64,000 bases of DNA from Alicyclobacillus herbarius DSM 13609 (lineage in GTDB: Bacteria > Bacillota > Bacilli > Alicyclobacillales > Alicyclobacillaceae). The notes below the pieces were generated by a model. That model saw nothing but the letters and a program-made list of their open reading frames with translations. It had not been told where the DNA came from and ran no database searches. Within the stretch, counting starts at the first letter, position 1, and every line of letters starts with the position of its first letter. A program made the translations under genes and the position numbers. The stretch is from positions 1 through 64,000 of the forward strand of contig NZ_AUMH01000009.1 of assembly GCF_000430585.1 (NCBI RefSeq), given 5' to 3'. This document shows, piece by piece, positions 20,500 through 31,088 of this stretch.

Positions 20500-21711
20500 T
20501 TACGATTGACTACTCGGCCACTTACCCAGCGTGACGGGAACCGTCAACGATTTGCCGTGACGCAGGACCCCCAGCTTGACAATCGTTCCGACCTTGTACT
20601 GGGCGATGGCCGCCGTCAAGTCCGCCACGGAGCCGACCGACTTGCCGTTGACCGAGACAATGATGTCGCCATCCCCTTTGGGTTTCTTAGTTGGATTGGA
20701 GCTGCTATCCGGTCGAATCCCCGCCTTCGCAGCCGGGCTCCCTTTGCTGACCTGCATCACCAATACGCCTTGGGCCACTGGTAAATGAAATTCGGCTTGG
20801 ACCGTCGGATCAATATCCAAGGCGCTGATGCCGAGCCACGGGTGCTCAATCGGCTGACCGGCCAACAGGCGCGGCAATACCTGGCGCAACCGGTCAATCG
20901 GAATCGCAAAGCCCACGCCTACTGACCCCTCGACCGGACTTTCAATCGCCGTGTTGATGCCAATCACCTGTCCCTTGGCGTCGAGCAGCGGCCCGCCCGA
21001 GTTACCCGGATTCAATGCCGCGTCGGTTTGCACAAGCCCACTCAACACGTGCCCGTCCTGCGTAGGCATGGAGCGGTTGAGCCCACTGACAATGCCTGCG
21101 GTGACACTGCTCGTCAGTTGGAACGGGTTCCCAATCGCGACCACCAGCTGGCCTGGCTGCAGGTTTTGCGCCGATCCGAAAGGCAGCGGTCGCAGATTGG
21201 AAATCCCGCCCACACGGACCACCGCCAAATCGTCCAACGCGTCTGTTCCCACGACCAGGCCCTTGTACGTGCGCGATCCGATGGTCACCGCGACCCACTT
21301 CTGGCCGTTGACCACGTGGTTATTGGTTGCGAAGTCTCCTTTATCGTCTATCAGAAAACCGGTTCCCACATCCGCCTGTGGCCGTGACTTCCCCGACTTC
21401 GACTGAATGGAGGTGATGGTCACGACACTGTTGCGGGCGCTGTCATAGATGCGGGTCACAATATTGCTTTCACCAATATCGGGAGGCAAGTAACCCGTGC
21501 CCGATCCGCCCGACTGATTGTTCATCCTTGTGGATGGGACCTGCTCCCCGCCCGTTTCACTGGTCCTATCGACGCCGACCGGCAGCCAGAGACCCGCGGT
21601 TACTATGCCGAGCACATAAGCGGCAGCCAGGCCTAGAACCACCCAGCGCCAACCTCTGCGGCGCGGGCGGGGCGATTCCCAATCGTCAAACCCATCCCAT
21701 GATCCCGACAC
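20500..21711 (-). CDS. Membrane-anchored HtrA-type serine protease with PDZ domain
   Basis: A 403-residue DegP/HtrA protease for surface and secreted protein quality control. The GTG at 21711 has AGGAGGG 6 bases upstream; the two upstream ATGs overlap that site. An Arg-rich cytoplasmic stretch precedes one membrane segment (WRWVVLGLAAAYVLGIVTAGLWL). The catalytic triad is visible as His in NNHVV, Asp in LDDLAVV and Ser in NPGNSGGPLL. One PDZ domain follows (about residues 290-395) and carries a short lysine-rich insert (SSSNPTKKPKGDGD). No regulator gene adjoins it. Confidence 0.92.
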   Translation of the reverse strand: MSGSWDGFDDWESPRPRRRGWRWVVLGLAAAYVLGIVTAGLWLPVGVDRTSETGGEQVPSTRMNNQSGGSGTGYLPPDIGESNIVTRIYDSARNSVVTITSIQSKSGKSRPQADVGTGFLIDDKGDFATNNHVVNGQKWVAVTIGSRTYKGLVVGTDALDDLAVVRVGGISNLRPLPFGSAQNLQPGQLVVAIGNPFQLTSSVTAGIVSGLNRSMPTQDGHVLSGLVQTDAALNPGNSGGPLLDAKGQVIGINTAIESPVEGSVGVGFAIPIDRLRQVLPRLLAGQPIEHPWLGISALDIDPTVQAEFHLPVAQGVLVMQVSKGSPAAKAGIRPDSSSNPTKKPKGDGDIIVSVNGKSVGSVADLTAAIAQYKVGTIVKLGVLRHGKSLTVPVTLGKWPSSQS

Positions 21712-21768
21712 GTACATCCCTCCTGCGCTCATCATACCGCAAACGGCCGGGATCGGAAAATCTGTGCA

Positions 21769-23856
21769 TCACGCGCGGCTGCCTACGTCGTGCTGGGCCC
21801 ATTCGGCCAGGTCAGCGGCCAATTTCTGCCACTGGACGAGCTGTTCCCGCTCGCTTGCCGGCTCCGCTTGGGCCCGCGTAGCTGCTTGGAGCACCGTTTC
21901 GGCAAGGATCCGATACTGTTCCGACAAGGTGCTTATGGCCGTCGCCAGCATCGGATGGGTCAAGACCGTCAAGTCTTCGGGCACCACCTTGGCAGCGACC
22001 TCGGCCATCGCCGTTAGCATGGCGTCCTGCCCGCCGCCCTCAAAGAACGATTTCGCGGAGTGAAAACTTTTCAAATGCGGCATGAACGGTTCCGGGCGCA
22101 GGGCGGATCGATACGGTTGCTCGGCCAAGTGCAGCGGGCGCATCTCCGGCAACGCATCGGCCAAATCCGACCTGCCGAGCGCTTCCAGTTCCTGTGCCCA
22201 CGCCCGACGGTCACGGGCATACGTCTGCTCCGCATAGGCAGCGATGCGCAGCGCCAGCGTCCGGCACTCAAGCTCCACCTGGCGTTGGAGCGATTCGACC
22301 AGTTCGAGTAAAGCACCCGACAACGCCTCTTGCACGCTGCCCGGTCCCTGAAAGCGCCCCGGGTAGAACGCTTCCCGGAAGAGCTGCGCAAACCGGAAGC
22401 GAATCCGTTCCCCTGCGTGAAACGCCAACTCACTCGCCTCACGCTCAAGTCCGCGGCTGGCATCGTCTTCTCCCGCAGCCGCAGCCTTCCGCAGGTTCTC
22501 CAACCGCATCCAGGTTTCTTGCTGACGGGCGGCAAGCGCCTCCCGTTCCGCCTCGGACCGGTCGTACGCCTGTTGCAGCTGGTGCACGCGCGCCAGGGTA
22601 CGCTCCTGTAAATCACGGAAGGTACGCCGCACCGCGTCTTCGGCCATGCGCTGGCTCTCCGTCTGCAGGAAGGCGATTAGGTCCTGTTCCAGCGGCAGGA
22701 TGCCAGATTGTTCAAGCACCGTACCCGCGTCCGGCAGGTCCGCGTCCGTGCGAACCTGCAGCCGGGTCCGCAACAGTTCGCGCAGTCCTGGATGATCCGG
22801 TCGTTCCCCGAGCTTCCTGGCTGCGAACGCCAGCTGACTGGAGACCTCATAGATGCGCGGCTGACGGATGCCGAGTTGTCGCAGTTCGGACAGCACGCGC
22901 TCGCGCACCGCCAGCCGTTCTTCGTCCGACTGGGCGAGATCGACAGCATTGAGGACGACAAACAGCTTGTCCGCGCCAACGAGGTCCTGGACCTCGGCCA
23001 ACTGCAAGAGAAAGTCTTTCTCCGCTCGCGACATGGCGTGTGTGTAATAGAGCACAAAGAGAATCGCGTCGGCCTGGCGCATATACTGAAAGGCGACGTC
23101 AGTGTGGCGGCGGTGAACAGAATCGACGCCCGGCGTGTCGACCAGCACCAGGCCCGGCAACACGCGACCGCCCAGAGCGGCGTCTGGATGCCAGAGCTGT
23201 ACCCGTTGCACAAAACAGGCGTACTGCTCCTCGGCGCAAAACCGGCTGGCCTCGTCGACGGACAGCGTCCACTGGGTTCCTAACCGATCTGCCAGTTGTT
23301 CATACCCGTTGGCAAATGCCTTTAAGAAGGAGAGCGTCTTCCGCTTGCCAATTGGTACATCGCGCGGCTTCAAGGATTTTACAAGTCTTGCCGCGTCGTC
23401 CAGGTCCTCGGCTTGGCGTTGAATGGCGGCCAAGGCCAGCGAGACGTCTTCCCACATCTGGTCGGCGGTTTTCGTCTCCACCAGGGCCACGGGCATCCCG
23501 GACACCTCGGTTCCCACGGATGCCGTAGACGGCGATAGGCTGTCCGCATTCACGTCAGAGCCCCGACGAAGTTCGGTGATCGCCGCCGTGGTCGGATTGG
23601 GCGAAACAACCAACAACGATTCACCGAGCAGCGCGTTGATGAGACTGGATTTGCCCGTGGAGAACGCCCCAAACACGGCCACCAGCCGCTCCGCGCGCTG
23701 CAAGCGGCCTTGCAAATCGGTCAACTCCCGCCGCCATGCTTCCGTATACGGGAGGTTCTCAAGGCGTTCTCTCAGGGCGATTATGCGCGCTTGCAAAGGC
23801 TCACGCTCTACGCTGGGCACACTCGCTTCGGTCATCCCACCTACATCCTTCCTCAT
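21769..23856 (-). CDS. Dynamin-family GTPase, second of a tandem pair
   Basis: A large GTPase of 695 residues likely to remodel or protect membranes. The P-loop GAFSTGKSS is at residues 63-71; VVSPNPTTAAITEL is switch I, VDTPGVDS switch II, and VVLNAVDLA the base-specificity motif. Long helical stalk segments follow, with a short hydrophobic patch near the C-terminus. The ATG at 23856 overlaps the stop of the preceding gene (ATGA), implying translational coupling; ATG 23835 is an alternative. With its neighbour it resembles the two halves of fused B. subtilis DynA (YpbR). Confidence 0.88.
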   Translation of the reverse strand: MRKDVGGMTEASVPSVEREPLQARIIALRERLENLPYTEAWRRELTDLQGRLQRAERLVAVFGAFSTGKSSLINALLGESLLVVSPNPTTAAITELRRGSDVNADSLSPSTASVGTEVSGMPVALVETKTADQMWEDVSLALAAIQRQAEDLDDAARLVKSLKPRDVPIGKRKTLSFLKAFANGYEQLADRLGTQWTLSVDEASRFCAEEQYACFVQRVQLWHPDAALGGRVLPGLVLVDTPGVDSVHRRHTDVAFQYMRQADAILFVLYYTHAMSRAEKDFLLQLAEVQDLVGADKLFVVLNAVDLAQSDEERLAVRERVLSELRQLGIRQPRIYEVSSQLAFAARKLGERPDHPGLRELLRTRLQVRTDADLPDAGTVLEQSGILPLEQDLIAFLQTESQRMAEDAVRRTFRDLQERTLARVHQLQQAYDRSEAEREALAARQQETWMRLENLRKAAAAGEDDASRGLEREASELAFHAGERIRFRFAQLFREAFYPGRFQGPGSVQEALSGALLELVESLQRQVELECRTLALRIAAYAEQTYARDRRAWAQELEALGRSDLADALPEMRPLHLAEQPYRSALRPEPFMPHLKSFHSAKSFFEGGGQDAMLTAMAEVAAKVVPEDLTVLTHPMLATAISTLSEQYRILAETVLQAATRAQAEPASEREQLVQWQKLAADLAEWAQHDVGSRA

Positions 23857-25421
23857 TCCGTTTGCCCCCCCACGCCTGACATCGCAGGAGACGGCTGAAC
23901 GCCCCTCGGCGTCGCCAGTGTCAAGCCTTCGTCCGCATCATCCGATGTCGTTAGCAAGTCCTGCAACTGTTGTTCCTCAGCAAGGCGCTGTGCCCTCAGT
24001 TCCAGCCAGGCGTTAAGGACCGTGATATCCGCCTCGATTTGCTGACAGCGGTCCAAGACATCGGCCAACCGGACCTTGAGCCGCTCACGGGCCGCCTCCT
24101 GCCAGCGCTCCAGCAGGGATTTGACCTGGGCTCGAAAGTCCGCTTTGAGCGCTGCCACGACATCTTTGACGTATTGATAGGGATACGAGTCCGAGATGAG
24201 AGCGCCCTCTCGCACCATTTGCCGCAGCCAACCGTCCTCGATGCGCACAGAGAGTTCATCCACACCCTGCAGAAGAACCTCGTTGACCCCCTCTTGCCCA
24301 GATGCAAACTCGCGCAGCAAACGGATTACTGGCCACTGCATGTATTTCTCGGTGCGCTCGGCCAGCTCGGCGCGAAACGCGGTCAGACGCTGCTGCCGCT
24401 CCTTCTCGGTACGCTCGGCCGAGCGCAGCCAGCCGACCCGAAAATCGGGACGCATGCTTTCAACAAACAACCGTCCCTTCTCTGTCGTCTCATACGGAGC
24501 AATTTGGGCCAACTCAATTTCGCGCAAGACTTGCGAGAGAAACGTCGCAAACGCGTCACACAAGGTCTGTTCTTGCCCCTCTACCTCTGCCTTTAAGGTA
24601 GAGAGGTGGTGCATGGCGTCCTCACGTTTGCCGGCCACGTCGACGTCGGTTTCCACCGTCACGCTGTCCGGCAGCCCCAAGCAGGCACGCACCTGGTCAT
24701 TCAACTGGCGTTGCTTGAATCCATATTTCCAATCCAGGTGCTCCGCAATGAGCTCCCCCGCCCTGTCCGTCAGCTGTGCCGGACTGGCTGCCGCGGCCAG
24801 GCCCCTCAGCCACTCCATCAGCTCCGGCATCTGGTTGCGTTCGTGCTGACGAGATGTCACGAAGAATAATCGTTCATAGTGAAGCTCCCAATCCGCAAAG
24901 GTCGATTCAATCCGTTCCGCAAACGTTTCAAATGGGATTTCCCATTCCACATGCTTGTCAATTTGATTGACAATCAGCACCAATCGCTTGCCTGTCCCAG
25001 AAAACTGGTAAGCCCACTCGAGATTGGCGTCGCTCTCTACGTGCTGATAGTCCATAACGAGGCATACCACATCGGCCTGATACAACGCCGACTGAGTGGC
25101 CCGCTGATGCGCCTCATCGGTGGAGTCGATGCCCGGTGTATCCAGGAGCCGCACGCGCCCGTCCGTCCCAGGCAGCAGAGCGCTTGTCACCTCGGCTGTT
25201 GTCGGAACCGCTCCCGTGGCCATGCGTTGACTGCCAGTCAACGCGTTGATGAGACTCGATTTTCCTGCCGAAAACAACCCAACGAACGCGACAACGGTAT
25301 GCTGCGGCGACTCGGCCCGCTGTATGAGCTGTGCCAACTTCTCCGCCGTGGCCACATCGCCGGCAGCTGCGATGTGTCGACGCAGTCTTTGCATTCCTAT
25401 GGTCATGGCTTTCTCCCCCAC
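23853..25421 (-). CDS. Dynamin-family GTPase, first of a tandem pair
   Basis: A 522-residue GTPase with P-loop GLFSAGKSS at residues 48-56, GAVPTTAEVTSAL switch I, LDTPGIDS switch II and VNQIDKH specificity motif. Helical middle and C-terminal regions follow, as in bacterial dynamins. GTG 25421 has AAGGAG 5 bases upstream; ATG 25406 is an alternative with GGGGGAG. The two tandem proteins sum to about 1217 residues, close to the 1193 of fused DynA, which has been linked to membrane fusion and phage or antibiotic protection. The order of domains matches DynA; function here is inferred. Confidence 0.88.
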   Translation of the reverse strand: MGEKAMTIGMQRLRRHIAAAGDVATAEKLAQLIQRAESPQHTVVAFVGLFSAGKSSLINALTGSQRMATGAVPTTAEVTSALLPGTDGRVRLLDTPGIDSTDEAHQRATQSALYQADVVCLVMDYQHVESDANLEWAYQFSGTGKRLVLIVNQIDKHVEWEIPFETFAERIESTFADWELHYERLFFVTSRQHERNQMPELMEWLRGLAAAASPAQLTDRAGELIAEHLDWKYGFKQRQLNDQVRACLGLPDSVTVETDVDVAGKREDAMHHLSTLKAEVEGQEQTLCDAFATFLSQVLREIELAQIAPYETTEKGRLFVESMRPDFRVGWLRSAERTEKERQQRLTAFRAELAERTEKYMQWPVIRLLREFASGQEGVNEVLLQGVDELSVRIEDGWLRQMVREGALISDSYPYQYVKDVVAALKADFRAQVKSLLERWQEAARERLKVRLADVLDRCQQIEADITVLNAWLELRAQRLAEEQQLQDLLTTSDDADEGLTLATPRGVQPSPAMSGVGGQTE

Positions 25422-26120: not shown

Positions 26121-27170
26121 TTGCTCGCATTGTCGGAAACCAGCCCTGGCTTCCTCTGTCACTTGTTTCGGCGCATTCTTCCTCAGGCTCGGCAGGAGAT
26201 CCAGCGTTGGACGCAAGCCGCCCGTGCCATTCCGGACCCTGAATTACGCTGTCAAGCCTTGGCCAGTTTGACGGACAAGCGTTTTCACGCCGACGGCGGC
26301 TGTGTGTATGCCGCCTTGGCCCCGACCGGTCCCGCCAACCTCGTACGGCTCATTGTCGCACTGCAGACCATCAGCGACTACCTGGACAACCTGTGCGACC
26401 GGTGTGGAGAACTGGATGAGGAAAACTTTCGCCAACTGCACCACGCGATGCGCGATGCCGTCCAGCCCGAAGCCCCACTGCGCGCCTATTACGCGCTCCA
26501 AACGTGCCAAAATGACGGCGGTTACCTGGCCGCGCTTGTCCACACGTGCCAAGAGGAGGTCAGCCGCCTGCCCGGGTATGCCCACGCCAAAACTCACATT
26601 CTGTGGTTAATTGAGCGTTACTGCGAACTCCAGCAGTATAAACACATCGCGCCTAAGCTGCGCCGACAGCGCCTTATCCGCTGGTTTGAGCAGTATCAAA
26701 ACCGGTTTTCAGACGTATATTGGTGGGAATTTTGTGCGGCGGCCGGATCGACCTTAGGGGTGTTTTCACTCTTTGCGGCGGCCCAACGCCCGCTTCATCC
26801 CAGCCGCGCCGAGGCCTTGTTTCAGAGTTATTTTCCGTGGGTCTGCGGCCTGCATATCCTTCTGGATTACTGGATTGACCTTGCGGAAGACGAGGAGCAT
26901 GGGGATTTTAACTTCGTCGCCTGCTATCCCACCTGGTCGGAGGCGTACCGACGACTCCAGCAGTTCGCGAAAAAAAGCCATGAATCGGTCCGACAGGCGG
27001 GCGGCCGACTGCATCATCACATCATCTCCGGGTTATTCGCCATGTACCTGTCGGATCAAAAAGTCCGAGCGACCCCCTCTATCCGCCCTCTGCGGCGGTT
27101 CATCTGGCGTTTAGGGCCGAAAACGTGGATGTTTTACAGTGCCTGCCAAATCTACAGGCTCATTCGTTGA
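26121..27170 (+). CDS. ytpB: Tetraprenyl-beta-curcumene synthase family protein (YtpB-like, DUF2600)
   Basis: A 349-residue all-helical class IB terpene synthase. In Bacillus, YtpB cyclises tetraprenyl diphosphate to a C35 sesquarterpene that is later made into baciterpenols found in spores. The first acidic motif is DYLDN (Asp86, Asp89); the second is LLDYWIDLAEDEEHGDFNF near residue 250. TTG at 26121 lies about 10 bases after GGAGG. No hopanoid-type cyclase or prenyltransferase partner gene is adjacent. Substrate is inferred from the family. Confidence 0.88.
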   Translation: MLALSETSPGFLCHLFRRILPQARQEIQRWTQAARAIPDPELRCQALASLTDKRFHADGGCVYAALAPTGPANLVRLIVALQTISDYLDNLCDRCGELDEENFRQLHHAMRDAVQPEAPLRAYYALQTCQNDGGYLAALVHTCQEEVSRLPGYAHAKTHILWLIERYCELQQYKHIAPKLRRQRLIRWFEQYQNRFSDVYWWEFCAAAGSTLGVFSLFAAAQRPLHPSRAEALFQSYFPWVCGLHILLDYWIDLAEDEEHGDFNFVACYPTWSEAYRRLQQFAKKSHESVRQAGGRLHHHIISGLFAMYLSDQKVRATPSIRPLRRFIWRLGPKTWMFYSACQIYRLIR

Positions 27171-27175
27171 CCGAA

Positions 27176-27541
27176 TCACGCATCGCGACGCCGCACGATG
27201 CGAACGGCGACCGCGTCAAACACTCCGGGTATCGGGGCCCCCGGCTTCTCGACCTCCACGCACACTTCGCAAACCTTGTCGTATCGCCGAAGAATCGTCT
27301 CGCCGATCCGCTCGGCTACCGTCTCAATCAGGCGAGCCGGCGGGCCTTCGACAACCTGTTTCACGTCACCGTACACTGCCGCATAATCGACCGTCTCCGA
27401 GATTGAATCCGATTTCCCGGCCGCACCAAGCGAGAGCCGCAACGTCACATCTACCCGAAACCGCTGCCCCAAGCGCCGTTCTTCGGCCAAGGCGCCGTGA
27501 TAGCCGTAAAAGTGCATGCCGGTCAAGCGAATCTCGTCCAT
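27176..27541 (-). CDS. folB: Dihydroneopterin aldolase
   Basis: Cleaves dihydroneopterin to 6-hydroxymethyl-dihydropterin in folate synthesis. The 121-residue protein has the family opening MDEIRLTGMHFYGYHGALAEER with the active-site Tyr and Glu, and the conserved lysine in VEKPGAPIPG. ATG at 27541 is preceded by GGGGGTG. It starts 20 bases after the GT2 gene stop, so they form an operon, and it is apart from folP and folK, which usually accompany it. It nearly abuts the convergent ytpB-like gene. Confidence 0.92.
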   Translation of the reverse strand: MDEIRLTGMHFYGYHGALAEERRLGQRFRVDVTLRLSLGAAGKSDSISETVDYAAVYGDVKQVVEGPPARLIETVAERIGETILRRYDKVCEVCVEVEKPGAPIPGVFDAVAVRIVRRRDA

Positions 27542-27561
27542 TCTAGCACCCCCGCTGCGAT

Positions 27562-28371
27562 TCACTGCCATAGGGCCATGTCTCCATCCCAAAGCTGGCG
27601 CGTCGGTGCCCGGTATGGAGCTAAATCCGGCCGTTCGAGCATCCGGAGGAAGTTCATGGCAGGCAGTTCTCCCAACCGGTGCTTCGCCGTGAGCGTCCGC
27701 AACCGTTCCCGCATGCGGTCCAAATCGGCAGACGCATTTCCCCCGCCTTGGTCGATGCCGTAGAGGACGGAAGCGACAGGAACACGCACCGGTGGGGACA
27801 AAGTACAAAGCCTGAGCCAAAAATCCCAATCCCAGTAATGGTCCACCGATTCATCGAAGCGGCCCAGCCGGACATGCACCTGTTTCCGATACAGGACCGT
27901 AGAAGGGATAATCGGATTGTAGCGACGGAGAAGTTCAGGCGCGCGCCGCCACGCAAACGGGTGCCGACCAACCACCGTCAAGCCTCTGCTCTCGTGACGA
28001 AGTTCGACCAATTCCGCATCGGCGTGCACCCAATCGGCCCGATGAGACTGTAAAACGGAAAGTAAAGAAGAAAGGTGAGTCGGCAACCAACGGTCATCGT
28101 CATCGCAAAAGGCAATCCATTCGCCCTTGGCGGCCGTGAGCGCCAGGTTGCGAGCAAAAACCTGCCCATGGTTTTGCGGTAAATCCTGAAACCAGATCTC
28201 AACGTCTGGATGCTCGCGCTGGAACTCTTCCACGACCGGGACGATACTGTCACCGCCATCATTCACCACACACACCTGCACCGGCACAGCCACAGTCTGA
28301 CGGGCGATAGACCGAAGGCAAGCACGCAGCTGCGAAAGCCGGTTGCGGGTGGCCATAAGAACGCTTATCAA
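27562..28371 (-). CDS. GT2-family glycosyltransferase
   Basis: A 269-residue inverting GT-A glycosyltransferase. The N-terminal ISVLMATRNR opens the nucleotide-binding fold; VVNDGG and the metal-binding FCDDDDRW (DxD) follow, with DWDFWLRL as the acceptor-side ED-like motif. The TTG at 28371 is chosen for the AGGCGGAG ribosome site and because the domain starts there. No membrane segment; sugar and acceptor unknown. Cotranscribed with folB by spacing, but no functional link is evident. Confidence 0.82.
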   Translation of the reverse strand: MISVLMATRNRLSQLRACLRSIARQTVAVPVQVCVVNDGGDSIVPVVEEFQREHPDVEIWFQDLPQNHGQVFARNLALTAAKGEWIAFCDDDDRWLPTHLSSLLSVLQSHRADWVHADAELVELRHESRGLTVVGRHPFAWRRAPELLRRYNPIIPSTVLYRKQVHVRLGRFDESVDHYWDWDFWLRLCTLSPPVRVPVASVLYGIDQGGGNASADLDRMRERLRTLTAKHRLGELPAMNFLRMLERPDLAPYRAPTRQLWDGDMALWQ

Positions 28372-28504
28372 TCCCACTCCGCCTTTCACGGACCTGCACC
28401 GAATTGACGATGCTAGAACGTGCTGCATCGTCCTGTGCCCATCATACACCAAGGAGCCGGTTTGTCGTATCCAGTCATGGAATTTCTCCGTACACCGCGG
28501 TACA

Positions 28505-28526
28505 ATATAGATAGAACATTCTATAT
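28505..28526. promoter_or_regulatory. Palindromic operator candidate upstream of the OsmC gene
   Basis: ATATAGA (28505-28511) and TCTATAT (28520-28526) flank an inner palindrome ATAGAA-CA-TTCTAT (28511-28524). A -10-like TACAAT lies immediately upstream (28501-28506), so the palindrome would cover the start of transcription. This geometry is typical of MarR-type repressors such as OhrR, but the sequence is not the OhrR consensus and no regulator gene adjoins. Confidence 0.55.
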
Positions 28527-28559
28527 ATTTGCCCTCTTAAACAAGGAGGCGGGATCGCC

Positions 28560-29012
28560 GTGACAGAGAGATTGACGTACACCGTGTTCGGGACCTGGTC
28601 GGGAGATAAAAGCGGCAATGGAACCTTGCGACTGGGGGAGAATACGACCGTGCACTACAGCATTCCCCAAAATCTAGGTGGCAGTGGCCAGGGAACCAAC
28701 CCGGAGGAACTCTTGTTATCCGCAGCCGCCGGCTGTTATACGCTGACACTGGCGATTCTCCTGCAGAACCGTCACATTCCCTACCATCGGATTGACATTG
28801 AGACGCAAGGCTTTGTGGAAAATGAGGGTGGGTTGCGATATGACCGAATTGTCCACCAGCCGGTGATTTACGTAGACAATTTGACGGACGAACAGCGCAT
28901 TCTTCGCCTTGCAGAACACGCCGAATTGACGTGCATGGTATCCTCGGCCTTGCGCGGAAATGTGGATGTCATCGTTCGTCCGCGCGTTGTCTGTGGAGCG
29001 GCCAGCCGTTGA
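28560..29012 (+). CDS. OsmC/Ohr-family peroxidase
   Basis: A 150-residue protein predicted to reduce organic hydroperoxides. The two reactive cysteines are present: Cys59 in SAAAGCYTLTL and Cys125 in AELTCMVSSAL. NPEELLLSAAAG is the family core motif. It is closer to the SACOL/YmaD-like OsmC branch than to classical Ohr, judging by the N-terminal FGTWSGDKSGNGTL. GTG at 28560 follows AAGGAGG. The palindrome upstream suggests peroxide- or thiol-responsive control. Confidence 0.87.
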   Translation: MTERLTYTVFGTWSGDKSGNGTLRLGENTTVHYSIPQNLGGSGQGTNPEELLLSAAAGCYTLTLAILLQNRHIPYHRIDIETQGFVENEGGLRYDRIVHQPVIYVDNLTDEQRILRLAEHAELTCMVSSALRGNVDVIVRPRVVCGAASR

Positions 29013-29064
29013 CTCGTCCGTTCAGTTGGGTCTTTATCGCGAGGTCCATTTCTCGCCAGATGGG

Positions 29065-29955
29065 TTAATCCCCGCCTGCGGAAAGCTCGTCGTCGAGCGC
29101 CTGTAGGTTCGCGGAAACCTCTGCGCCAAACAGCATCGCCAAACTCGCCAGGTACATCCACAGAATGACGAGCATGACCACCGTCAACGTGCCATAAATC
29201 AGCTGGTACATGACCAGGTGGGAGGCGTACCAGGTAAAGACCGCGCGCCCTGCGTCGACGGCGACCGTCGTCACCAGTGCGCCCGGTACGAGATAGACGA
29301 AATGGCCCTGCCGGGAAGGGAGATATCGGTAAACAACCAAACAGCCGACAAACAGTGAAAGCGGAAAGAGCACGCGGGAGACGGCGTGCAGCATCTTCAC
29401 CCAATCGAAAAAGGCCGCGTGCCGAACCAGCGTGTACTTCACCAACGGGGTCAGGGCCATGACCACTTCCGACCCCAAGGTGAGGAGCAGCAAGATCAAC
29501 AACATCGCGAAGGCAATCAGGCGACGCTTGACAAAGGAGCGCTGCTGCGAATTCCAGACCACATCCAGCGCTTGCTGTACGGCGATAAAACCGCTGGTCG
29601 CCGACCAGGTCAAAATCACGGCGCTGACGATACCCACATTGACGCCCACCCGGGTCAGGTGCGGCAGGTTGCTCGTGATGTAATTGCGGGGCCAGGCCGG
29701 AAAGTAAGGTGTTACAAATAATCCCACAACCTTTTCCACCTGCACCTGCGGCAGCAACAAGCTGGCCCCGTAAATCAGCAGAAGCAGCAGCGGGAATAAG
29801 GAGAAAAAGGCATAAAACGCAATCACCGCGGCGAGCGAAGCCAGGTCATGCTGGGCCACTGAGACAACCAGGCGCCATAAGAAGCGGCCGGCTACTTTGT
29901 GAAAAGACGGTGACGGTGGCGTCTCCGTTTCGTCGCCCAAACGCCAAAACATCAC
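29065..29955 (-). CDS. YihY/BrkB-family membrane protein
   Basis: A 296-residue inner-membrane protein with about six hydrophobic segments. The family core is visible: LASLAAVIAFYAFFSLFPLLLLLIYGASLL near residues 45-70 and VPGALVTTVAVDAGRAVFTWY later. The family was once mislabelled RNase BN; its real function is unknown, with transport or cell-envelope roles proposed. GTG at 29955 lies 9 bases after AAGGGG. Convergent with the OsmC gene. Confidence 0.87.
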   Translation of the reverse strand: MMFWRLGDETETPPSPSFHKVAGRFLWRLVVSVAQHDLASLAAVIAFYAFFSLFPLLLLLIYGASLLLPQVQVEKVVGLFVTPYFPAWPRNYITSNLPHLTRVGVNVGIVSAVILTWSATSGFIAVQQALDVVWNSQQRSFVKRRLIAFAMLLILLLLTLGSEVVMALTPLVKYTLVRHAAFFDWVKMLHAVSRVLFPLSLFVGCLVVYRYLPSRQGHFVYLVPGALVTTVAVDAGRAVFTWYASHLVMYQLIYGTLTVVMLVILWMYLASLAMLFGAEVSANLQALDDELSAGGD

Positions 29956-30023
29956 AACGAGATTCCCCTTGTGCTGGTTTTCCTGTCCTCTCCGCGGTCA
30001 CCCCGTGCCGATTGTCCCTTACA

Positions 30024-31088
30024 TCAGGCATGCACATCGGTGAAAAGATTGCCGACAAGCGATTCCTGTAGCACATCGGCATAGTCCGGCAGCATCTCGT
30101 GCCAAGACTCTGGAAACGGGGCAATCGCCCGCAGTCGCTCCCGCGTATACGGGTGGATGAAGGTCAAACGGATGGCATGCAGCGCGAATCCGCGCGGCCA
30201 GACGCGCCCATCTGGGCTTGTTCCACCCCCGTACAGCGTGTCCCCGACGATGGGACACCCGAGCGCGCTGAGGTGAACACGAATCTGATGCGTTCGTCCC
30301 GTTTCCAACCGGCAAATGACGAGCGTGTACCAGCGACCGTCCAGGTTTCGTTCATCCACGACCTGGTAATCGGTGATGGCGGTTTTCCCGTTTCGGGCCA
30401 CCCGGTAGCGCCCTGCGTGATGGCGATCCCGCCCGATGTTTTCGGCAATTCTGCCTCTCTTCTGGGGCATGCGGCCATGCACGCAGGCCACATAGGTACG
30501 CCTGATCTGGTGTACACGTAGTTGTTGATCGAAAACCCGAGCGCTGTAAGCGTGTCCCGCATATAGAAGGCAGCCGCTCGTCCCGACGTCGAGGCGGTGC
30601 ACGTGTCGGATCTTCCGTTCGATTCCCTGCAGGGCCAGCCAGTGTGCAACCCGGTGGCCAAGCGTATCGACGTCCATCGGCGTTCCTGGGTAGACGAGCA
30701 CCCCGGAGGGTTTATTCACCACAAACAGGTGTTCATCCGCGTATAGAACGTCCGCGACCGGGGCGCTTTGCCATCCCTCTACGCCGTAGGACTCAACGAT
30801 GCCACCCAACAAGCGGATTTTGGCGTTCCCACAAGCATCGCTGGGAGCCGCACGGCGCGAACCGACATAAACGCGGCCATTATGGAACAGCGTACGGACA
30901 AAGCCTCGCGGTAGGTGAAGGGTATCGGTCAGGAGGGCACACAGAGGCTGGCCCGCCAACTTGGCATCCGGCTGGACGACGAGCGTGTCACCTTGGATGT
31001 GTACCTCCACCCTCTGACTATCTCCCTTCTCGCTTGGATGCACGCGGCTTGAAAAAAACGGTGCACAGGCACCGCTCTCTGTACTCAT
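30024..31088 (-). CDS. RluA-family RNA pseudouridine synthase
   Basis: Converts specific uridines to pseudouridine in rRNA or tRNA. The catalytic motif HRLDVGTSGCLLYA and the GRTHQIRVHLSALGCPIVGDTLYG motif define the RluA group. An N-terminal S4-like region (LTDTLHLPRGFVRTLFHNGRVYVG) precedes the catalytic domain, as in RluD and YlyB. ATG 31088 has a poorly spaced ribosome site; GTG 31010, behind GAAGGGAG, is an alternative that would drop 26 residues. Target site cannot be told from sequence. Confidence 0.9.
   Translation of the reverse strand: MSTESGACAPFFSSRVHPSEKGDSQRVEVHIQGDTLVVQPDAKLAGQPLCALLTDTLHLPRGFVRTLFHNGRVYVGSRRAAPSDACGNAKIRLLGGIVESYGVEGWQSAPVADVLYADEHLFVVNKPSGVLVYPGTPMDVDTLGHRVAHWLALQGIERKIRHVHRLDVGTSGCLLYAGHAYSARVFDQQLRVHQIRRTYVACVHGRMPQKRGRIAENIGRDRHHAGRYRVARNGKTAITDYQVVDERNLDGRWYTLVICRLETGRTHQIRVHLSALGCPIVGDTLYGGGTSPDGRVWPRGFALHAIRLTFIHPYTRERLRAIAPFPESWHEMLPDYADVLQESLVGNLFTDVHA

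Follow-up and report, generated by a model that had tools for sequence, protein, structure and literature searches.

The window, i.e., the whole 64,000-nucleotide stretch of DNA that was analysed from Alicyclobacillus herbarius DSM 13609, an acidophilic relative of Bacillus, contains two adjacent genes for dynamin-like GTPases on its minus strand. The upstream gene (positions 23853 to 25421) encodes a protein of 522 amino acid residues from a GTG start, with an in-frame alternative ATG at codon 6, and the downstream gene (positions 21769 to 23856) a protein of 695 residues from an ATG start, with an alternative ATG at codon 8; the start codons of both genes are not certain. The stop codon of the first gene and the start codon of the second share four bases in an ATGA overlap (positions 23853 to 23856, minus strand), in agreement with the ATGA-coupled pair of 522 and 695 residues reported in a preliminary description of this DNA. 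The summed length of 1217 residues, compared there with that of Bacillus subtilis DynA, is close to the 1187 positions of the NCBIfam DynA model and to the 1193 residues of a fused relative (L232). Scans for promoter and terminator patterns at the pair found 0 and 0, respectively, with 1.0 and 4.6 obtained from shuffled sequences.

Both proteins scored above the cut-off of the Pfam Dynamin_N model (27 bits), with 69.6 bits for the 522-residue protein and 108.2 bits for the 695-residue protein. A Dynamin_N search of the genome identified them as the sole full dynamins; the other matches were two short ones to P-loop regions, in frames of GTPase size (302 and 446 residues). The G1, G2, G3 and G4 motifs that mark the dynamin superfamily were found within the Dynamin_N domain, in alignments of the window proteins with 45 of 80 stretches of the first type and 42 of 76 of the second. 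In the 522-residue protein G1 (GLFSAGKSS), G2 (PTTA), G3 (DTPG) and G4 (NQIDK) are all present, and the 695-residue protein has G1 (GAFSTGKSS), G3 (DTPGVDS) and G4 (NAVD), together with a conserved FFEGxG motif (F604, F605, E606) near its C-terminal end.

The proposed match of the two proteins to the two halves of fused DynA was borne out by the NCBIfam DynA model, by home-made profiles and by trees, which concurred in assigning the 522-residue protein to the first half (D1) and the 695-residue protein to the second (D2). The best stretch of the NCBIfam model was 131–520 for D1 (244 bits) and 578–879 for D2 (210 bits). Neither reached the equivalog cut-off of 1600 bits, and the fused relative of 1193 residues, with 722 bits, likewise fell below it. 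Profiles built from 17 Alicyclobacillaceae members each matched, among the matches listed, the first and the second half, respectively, of complete fused proteins of 1193–1390 residues from Paenibacillus, Anoxybacillus, Kroppenstedtia, Ammoniphilus and further families. A mixture-model tree of 46 rows (23 loci) showed D1 and D2 as two clades with support 100/100, and a quick tree of 126 rows (63 loci) separated them with an SH-aLRT value of 100. In the phylogeny with the DynA halves each protein grouped with its own half; a grouping of both with the same half, or with unrelated dynamins, was not observed. By sequence, the two proteins are thus orthologous to DynA D1 and D2.

It is highly improbable that these are two unrelated dynamins, of the IniA/IniC, LeoA or cyanobacterial type, which merely add up to the length of DynA. 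Both proteins matched the PADLOC LeoA and LeoBC models, and IniA, BDLP and SynDLP were among the best structural matches; IniA was a top structural match, and the trees contained no IniA row. However, the matches to the DynA model were stronger and fell on opposite halves of it, and the trees placed each protein with its own DynA half. Membership of the LeoABC system was rejected in the same way, the LeoA and LeoBC matches amounting to 57–88 bits as compared with 210–244 bits for the DynA model.

DynA of the two-headed kind is one polypeptide with two GTPase modules, and is further characterised by a membrane-binding D1, fusion independent of nucleotide and a dimeric state. Here two open reading frames with a stop between them were found, both in the window and in all 23 named Alicyclobacillaceae loci that hold both genes, and the locus is therefore referred to as a split DynA pair and not as two-headed DynA. 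As the split recurs in all of these loci, a frameshift or an assembly artefact could be ruled out as its cause. Of the 23, 12 could have an NTGA overlap, and in every one of the 23 some possible D2 start lies no more than 25 bases from the D1 stop; the two genes are thus kept closely coupled in these loci, but not with the exact ATGA.

Among the 41 Alicyclobacillaceae genomes (family f1), that of the window included, D1 was detected in 40 and D2 in 39. One genome (G028) has neither half, in another (G037) the contig ends within D1, and in a third (G031) a contig end cuts D2. No frame listed for the family is long enough for both halves, the largest having 854 residues, and DynA in Alicyclobacillaceae takes the form of a split pair. 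In the sister family f2, DynA was found in six of 18 genomes, the identical six for both halves; the copies are fused in G614 (1296 residues) and G615 (1281 residues) and split in G287, G616, G602 and, in pieces at contig ends, G254. The joint presence or absence of D1 and D2 in both families fits an obligate pair only weakly, because the loss of one gene easily takes its neighbour with it, and an assembly may likewise miss both.

Across the class, 240 of 299 sampled genomes matched D2 at 1e-10, and the matches listed included long frames (about 1190–1410 residues) as well as frames of 650–850 residues. The split was confirmed at the locus level in seven of the seven loci checked, namely four of family f22 (Brevibacillus, including Brevibacillus laterosporus), one of f35 and two of f36. 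One fused frame each was found in the complete loci retrieved from 15 further families of the class; beside these there were two loci cut by contigs and one (L236) broken inside D1. The named relatives were the best 80 of 487, and this set therefore leans to close relatives.

The preliminary description offered the unfused ancestral form or a fission as explanations of the pair, and suggested that each half may thereby assemble independently. No single answer as to ancestral form or fission was obtained: among the relatives the gene has switched several times between the fused and the split form. Trees of 63 loci combined 28 of the 80 named loci with 35 that were fetched, with L214, L235, L236 and L239 excluded as cut or broken. 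The fewest changes between the two forms were four on the concatenated D1 and D2 gene tree of the 63 loci and five on that of a focused set of 39 loci, four of the latter five being forced by starred branches; the corresponding numbers were five on an rpoC tree and three on an rpoBC tree. Forcing all 18 split rows into one group lowered the likelihood by 288 log units (p-AU 4.9e-80), and a single origin was thereby rejected. The fits of the fission-only, fusion-only and reversible models differed by no more than about 2 log units, the fission-only model lying 0.3–1.7 log units behind the reversible one. The reversible Mk models gave a split ancestor of Alicyclobacillales with P 0.90–0.94, and a probability of the split state at the root of Bacilli of 0.00 on the rpoC tree and 0.09–0.13 on the rpoBC tree. 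The ancestor of Alicyclobacillales was thus probably split, and the split state in Alicyclobacillaceae dates back at least to the ancestor of the sampled family.

Two readings of this history have to be weighed. To the first, a secondary fission, we would give an even chance: the ancestor of Bacilli would already have had the fused gene, and Alicyclobacillales would have split it, perhaps repeatedly, like Brevibacillus and two further families. The position of split f22, f35 and f36 among fused lineages, the rejection of one clade for all split rows, and the fused Bacilli root of the reversible models argue for it. So does the likeness between the linkers of two fused families close to split f22, namely f27 and f11, for which none of 200 shuffles scored as high; this was the best of several pairs, and the alignment in part covers the beginning of D2. 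The linker comparison covered the 68–130 residues between profile ends in fused proteins, and for most pairings among fused families no likeness exceeded z 4, which counts against this reading; a search of the Alicyclobacillaceae D1 tails for a remnant of a fused-type linker gave none that was clear. The fusion-only model also fitted slightly better than the fission-only one (lnL −16.84 vs. −17.55 on rpoC, −12.66 vs. −12.98 on rpoBC).

A further point against fission also speaks for the second reading, in which Alicyclobacillaceae retain an unfused state older than the DynA fusion. When the 46-row tree was rooted with D1 against D2, f1 was the first to branch in D2 (remaining rows 95/95), and on the D1 side f1, f2 and the rest formed an unresolved base. 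The split ancestor of Alicyclobacillales in the reversible models is in line with this, and adjacent dynamin pairs are described as the usual bacterial form in passages of PMC6104087 and PMC4159319. However, a very long branch joins D1 and D2 (3.09 on each side as drawn), and those of f1 are long too, so that long-branch attraction is likely to lie behind the placement of f1. In the outgroup-rooted rpoBC and rpoC trees, moreover, Alicyclobacillales is not basal but nests within a clade that also includes f13 and f28, both of them fused. In the DynA tree f1 and f2 form one side of a branch at 100/99, and the DynA rows mildly reject the grouping of Alicyclobacillales with f13 and f28 (p-AU 0.025). 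Retention of an ancestral pair is, on balance, a tentative reading, and somewhat doubtful.

Two features go beyond the preliminary description, namely an altered G domain of D1 and a protease gene next to the pair. In D1 the segment between G2 and G3 is shortened and the P-loop has a leucine. The distance from the P-loop to DTPG is 37–39 residues in 24 of 24 named Alicyclobacillaceae loci and 79–96 residues in 92 of 93 other D1 stretches, the motif pair not being found in the remaining one; the 93 include 14 loci without a single full open reading frame (some cut by contigs or broken), and one Brevibacillus locus is counted twice. The P-loop reads GLFSAGKS in all 24 family loci as compared with GHFSAGKS in 86 of the 93 others, i.e., His is replaced by Leu. 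Judged by profile coordinates, D1 of the sister family f2 retains the longer segment. In D2 of Alicyclobacillaceae the P-loop-to-DTPG distance is 145–182 residues.

The structural model of D1 (pLDDT 92.1) has six strands in the G domain and that of D2 (pLDDT 88.8) nine. Dynamins are marked by a G domain extended relative to that of Ras-type GTPases; with 37–39 residues and six strands, the D1 G domain is close to the Ras/Era spacing. The helical bundle is retained in D1, and a conserved RPxFxVG segment is possibly the membrane paddle. Sequence matches of D1 to solved structures were led by Der/EngA, with Der/Era-type GTPases matched too, probably because of the shortened G2–G3 segment. In Foldseek searches the top PDB matches were IniA, BDLP and the Campylobacter jejuni pair for D1, and SynDLP, BDLP, IniA and the C. 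jejuni pair for D2. Whole-chain TM-scores of these matches were low, at about 0.3 for D1 and no more than 0.44 for D2, and the rmsd values were large; the fold assignment therefore rests on Foldseek E-values and domain-level likeness. The loss of part of the G2–G3 segment, which other D1s retain, may set the GTPase cycle of Alicyclobacillaceae D1 apart from theirs.

An HtrA/DegP-type serine protease gene with a PDZ domain (positions 20500 to 21735, minus strand) lies 33 bases downstream of D2. In a comparison that covered 5–14 kb per locus, and into which three family genomes were entered twice, 26 of 29 Alicyclobacillaceae loci had an HtrA-type gene beside the pair and in the same orientation, vs. 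none of 29 other Bacilli and outgroup loci. Of the three family loci without it, L130 is truncated where its contig ends, L131 probably by the end of the locus, and L144 gave no match. In most family loci no more than about 240 bases separate the gene from D2; the gap is about 2.2 kb in L129, L136 and L140, and in L129 it contains a 704-residue open reading frame that, by eye, looks like a prolyl-oligopeptidase-type peptidase. The linkage to HtrA may connect the pair with envelope stress.

Elsewhere in the window, positions 26121 to 31088 contain a DUF2600 gene, genes for a FolB aldolase and a family-2 glycosyltransferase, and OsmC, BrkB-family and pseudouridine synthase genes, which are partly conserved in the family.

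Each of the two proteins has its orthologue in one half of DynA of the B. subtilis type (YpbR; NCBIfam NF052648), with the order of the halves preserved and the G motifs conserved; the NCBIfam model, together with fused relatives, represented this type in the comparisons. The B. subtilis type is, however, one gene with a linker, whereas here there are two genes and no linker; in addition, the G2–G3 segment of Alicyclobacillaceae D1 is about 45 residues shorter, and its P-loop has GLF instead of GHF. The split pair of Brevibacillus (L203, which is the same locus as L213) also consists of adjacent D1 and D2 genes, with frames of 555 and 689 residues. It differs in forming a separate lineage on the tree, in a D1 that keeps the long G2–G3 segment, as other split and fused D1s do, and in the lack of an HtrA match beside the pair (L213).

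In Campylobacter jejuni, Cj-DLP1 and Cj-DLP2 are likewise encoded by adjacent genes, and passages of PMC6104087 report a solved hetero-tetramer and a Campylobacter-specific assembly domain in Cj-DLP1. The two are among the structural matches of both the D1 and the D2 model. Their sequence relation to the pair is weak, the best phmmer match (42 bits) being to D2.

According to passages of PMC6104087, PMC4159319 and PMC6162298, DynA requires both of its GTPases, D1 binds the membrane and D2 does so weakly or not at all, and the C. jejuni pair is a 2:2 tetramer that tethers membranes. Published descriptions, among them passages of PMC8844932, present DynA as a product of gene fusion in firmicutes that confers phage resistance; the literature considered also included PMC11237479. 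Given the orthology of the halves and the coupling of their genes, the simplest mechanism would be a DynA-like complex built from two chains. We consider it probable that the pair is DynA encoded by two translationally coupled genes, most likely acting as one heteromeric membrane-tethering and resealing complex. By analogy with the published DynA and Cj-DLP work, D1 and D2 would assemble with each other like the halves of fused B. subtilis DynA and like Campylobacter DLP1 and DLP2; membrane binding would fall to D1, and regulation or completion of the GTPase cycle to D2 as its GTPase partner, with the complex serving to tether damaged membrane and to reseal it.

A variant that we regard as unlikely is that D1 was remodelled after, or with, the separation, so that its compact, small-GTPase-like G domain would need D2 in trans for GTPase activation, within an HtrA-linked envelope-stress cluster. 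If true, this would be a division of labour that the covalent DynA fusion does not show. With its short G domain, seen throughout the family loci examined, D1 offers a natural deletion that raises the question of how much of such a domain, and which part, a dynamin can spare in the presence of a partner.

The known picture is not overturned, since paired bacterial dynamins are common, and as such a pair the locus is ordinary. It is less so as a split DynA with a short D1 G domain in an order of mixed forms: within one bacterial order a membrane-fusion dynamin occurs naturally both split and fused, and the role of the DynA fusion can therefore be tested by swapping the two forms. A search of the open-licence PMC literature for dynamin-like proteins in connection with Alicyclobacillus gave at most a single paper, in which each term appears once.

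Other DynA copies were observed among the relatives. At least two genomes (G073 and G049) carry two different fused DynA genes (L226/L227 and L229/L230), and L226, L230 and L228 form a separate clade. In L167, L236 and L239 a DynA-type gene is broken into two overlapping frames within a domain, not at the D1–D2 linker, which may reflect sequencing error, decay or frameshifting. Fused DynA from outside the class (families f96, f144 and f77; L237, L238 and L240–L243) nests among the Bacilli rows, which suggests horizontal transfer.
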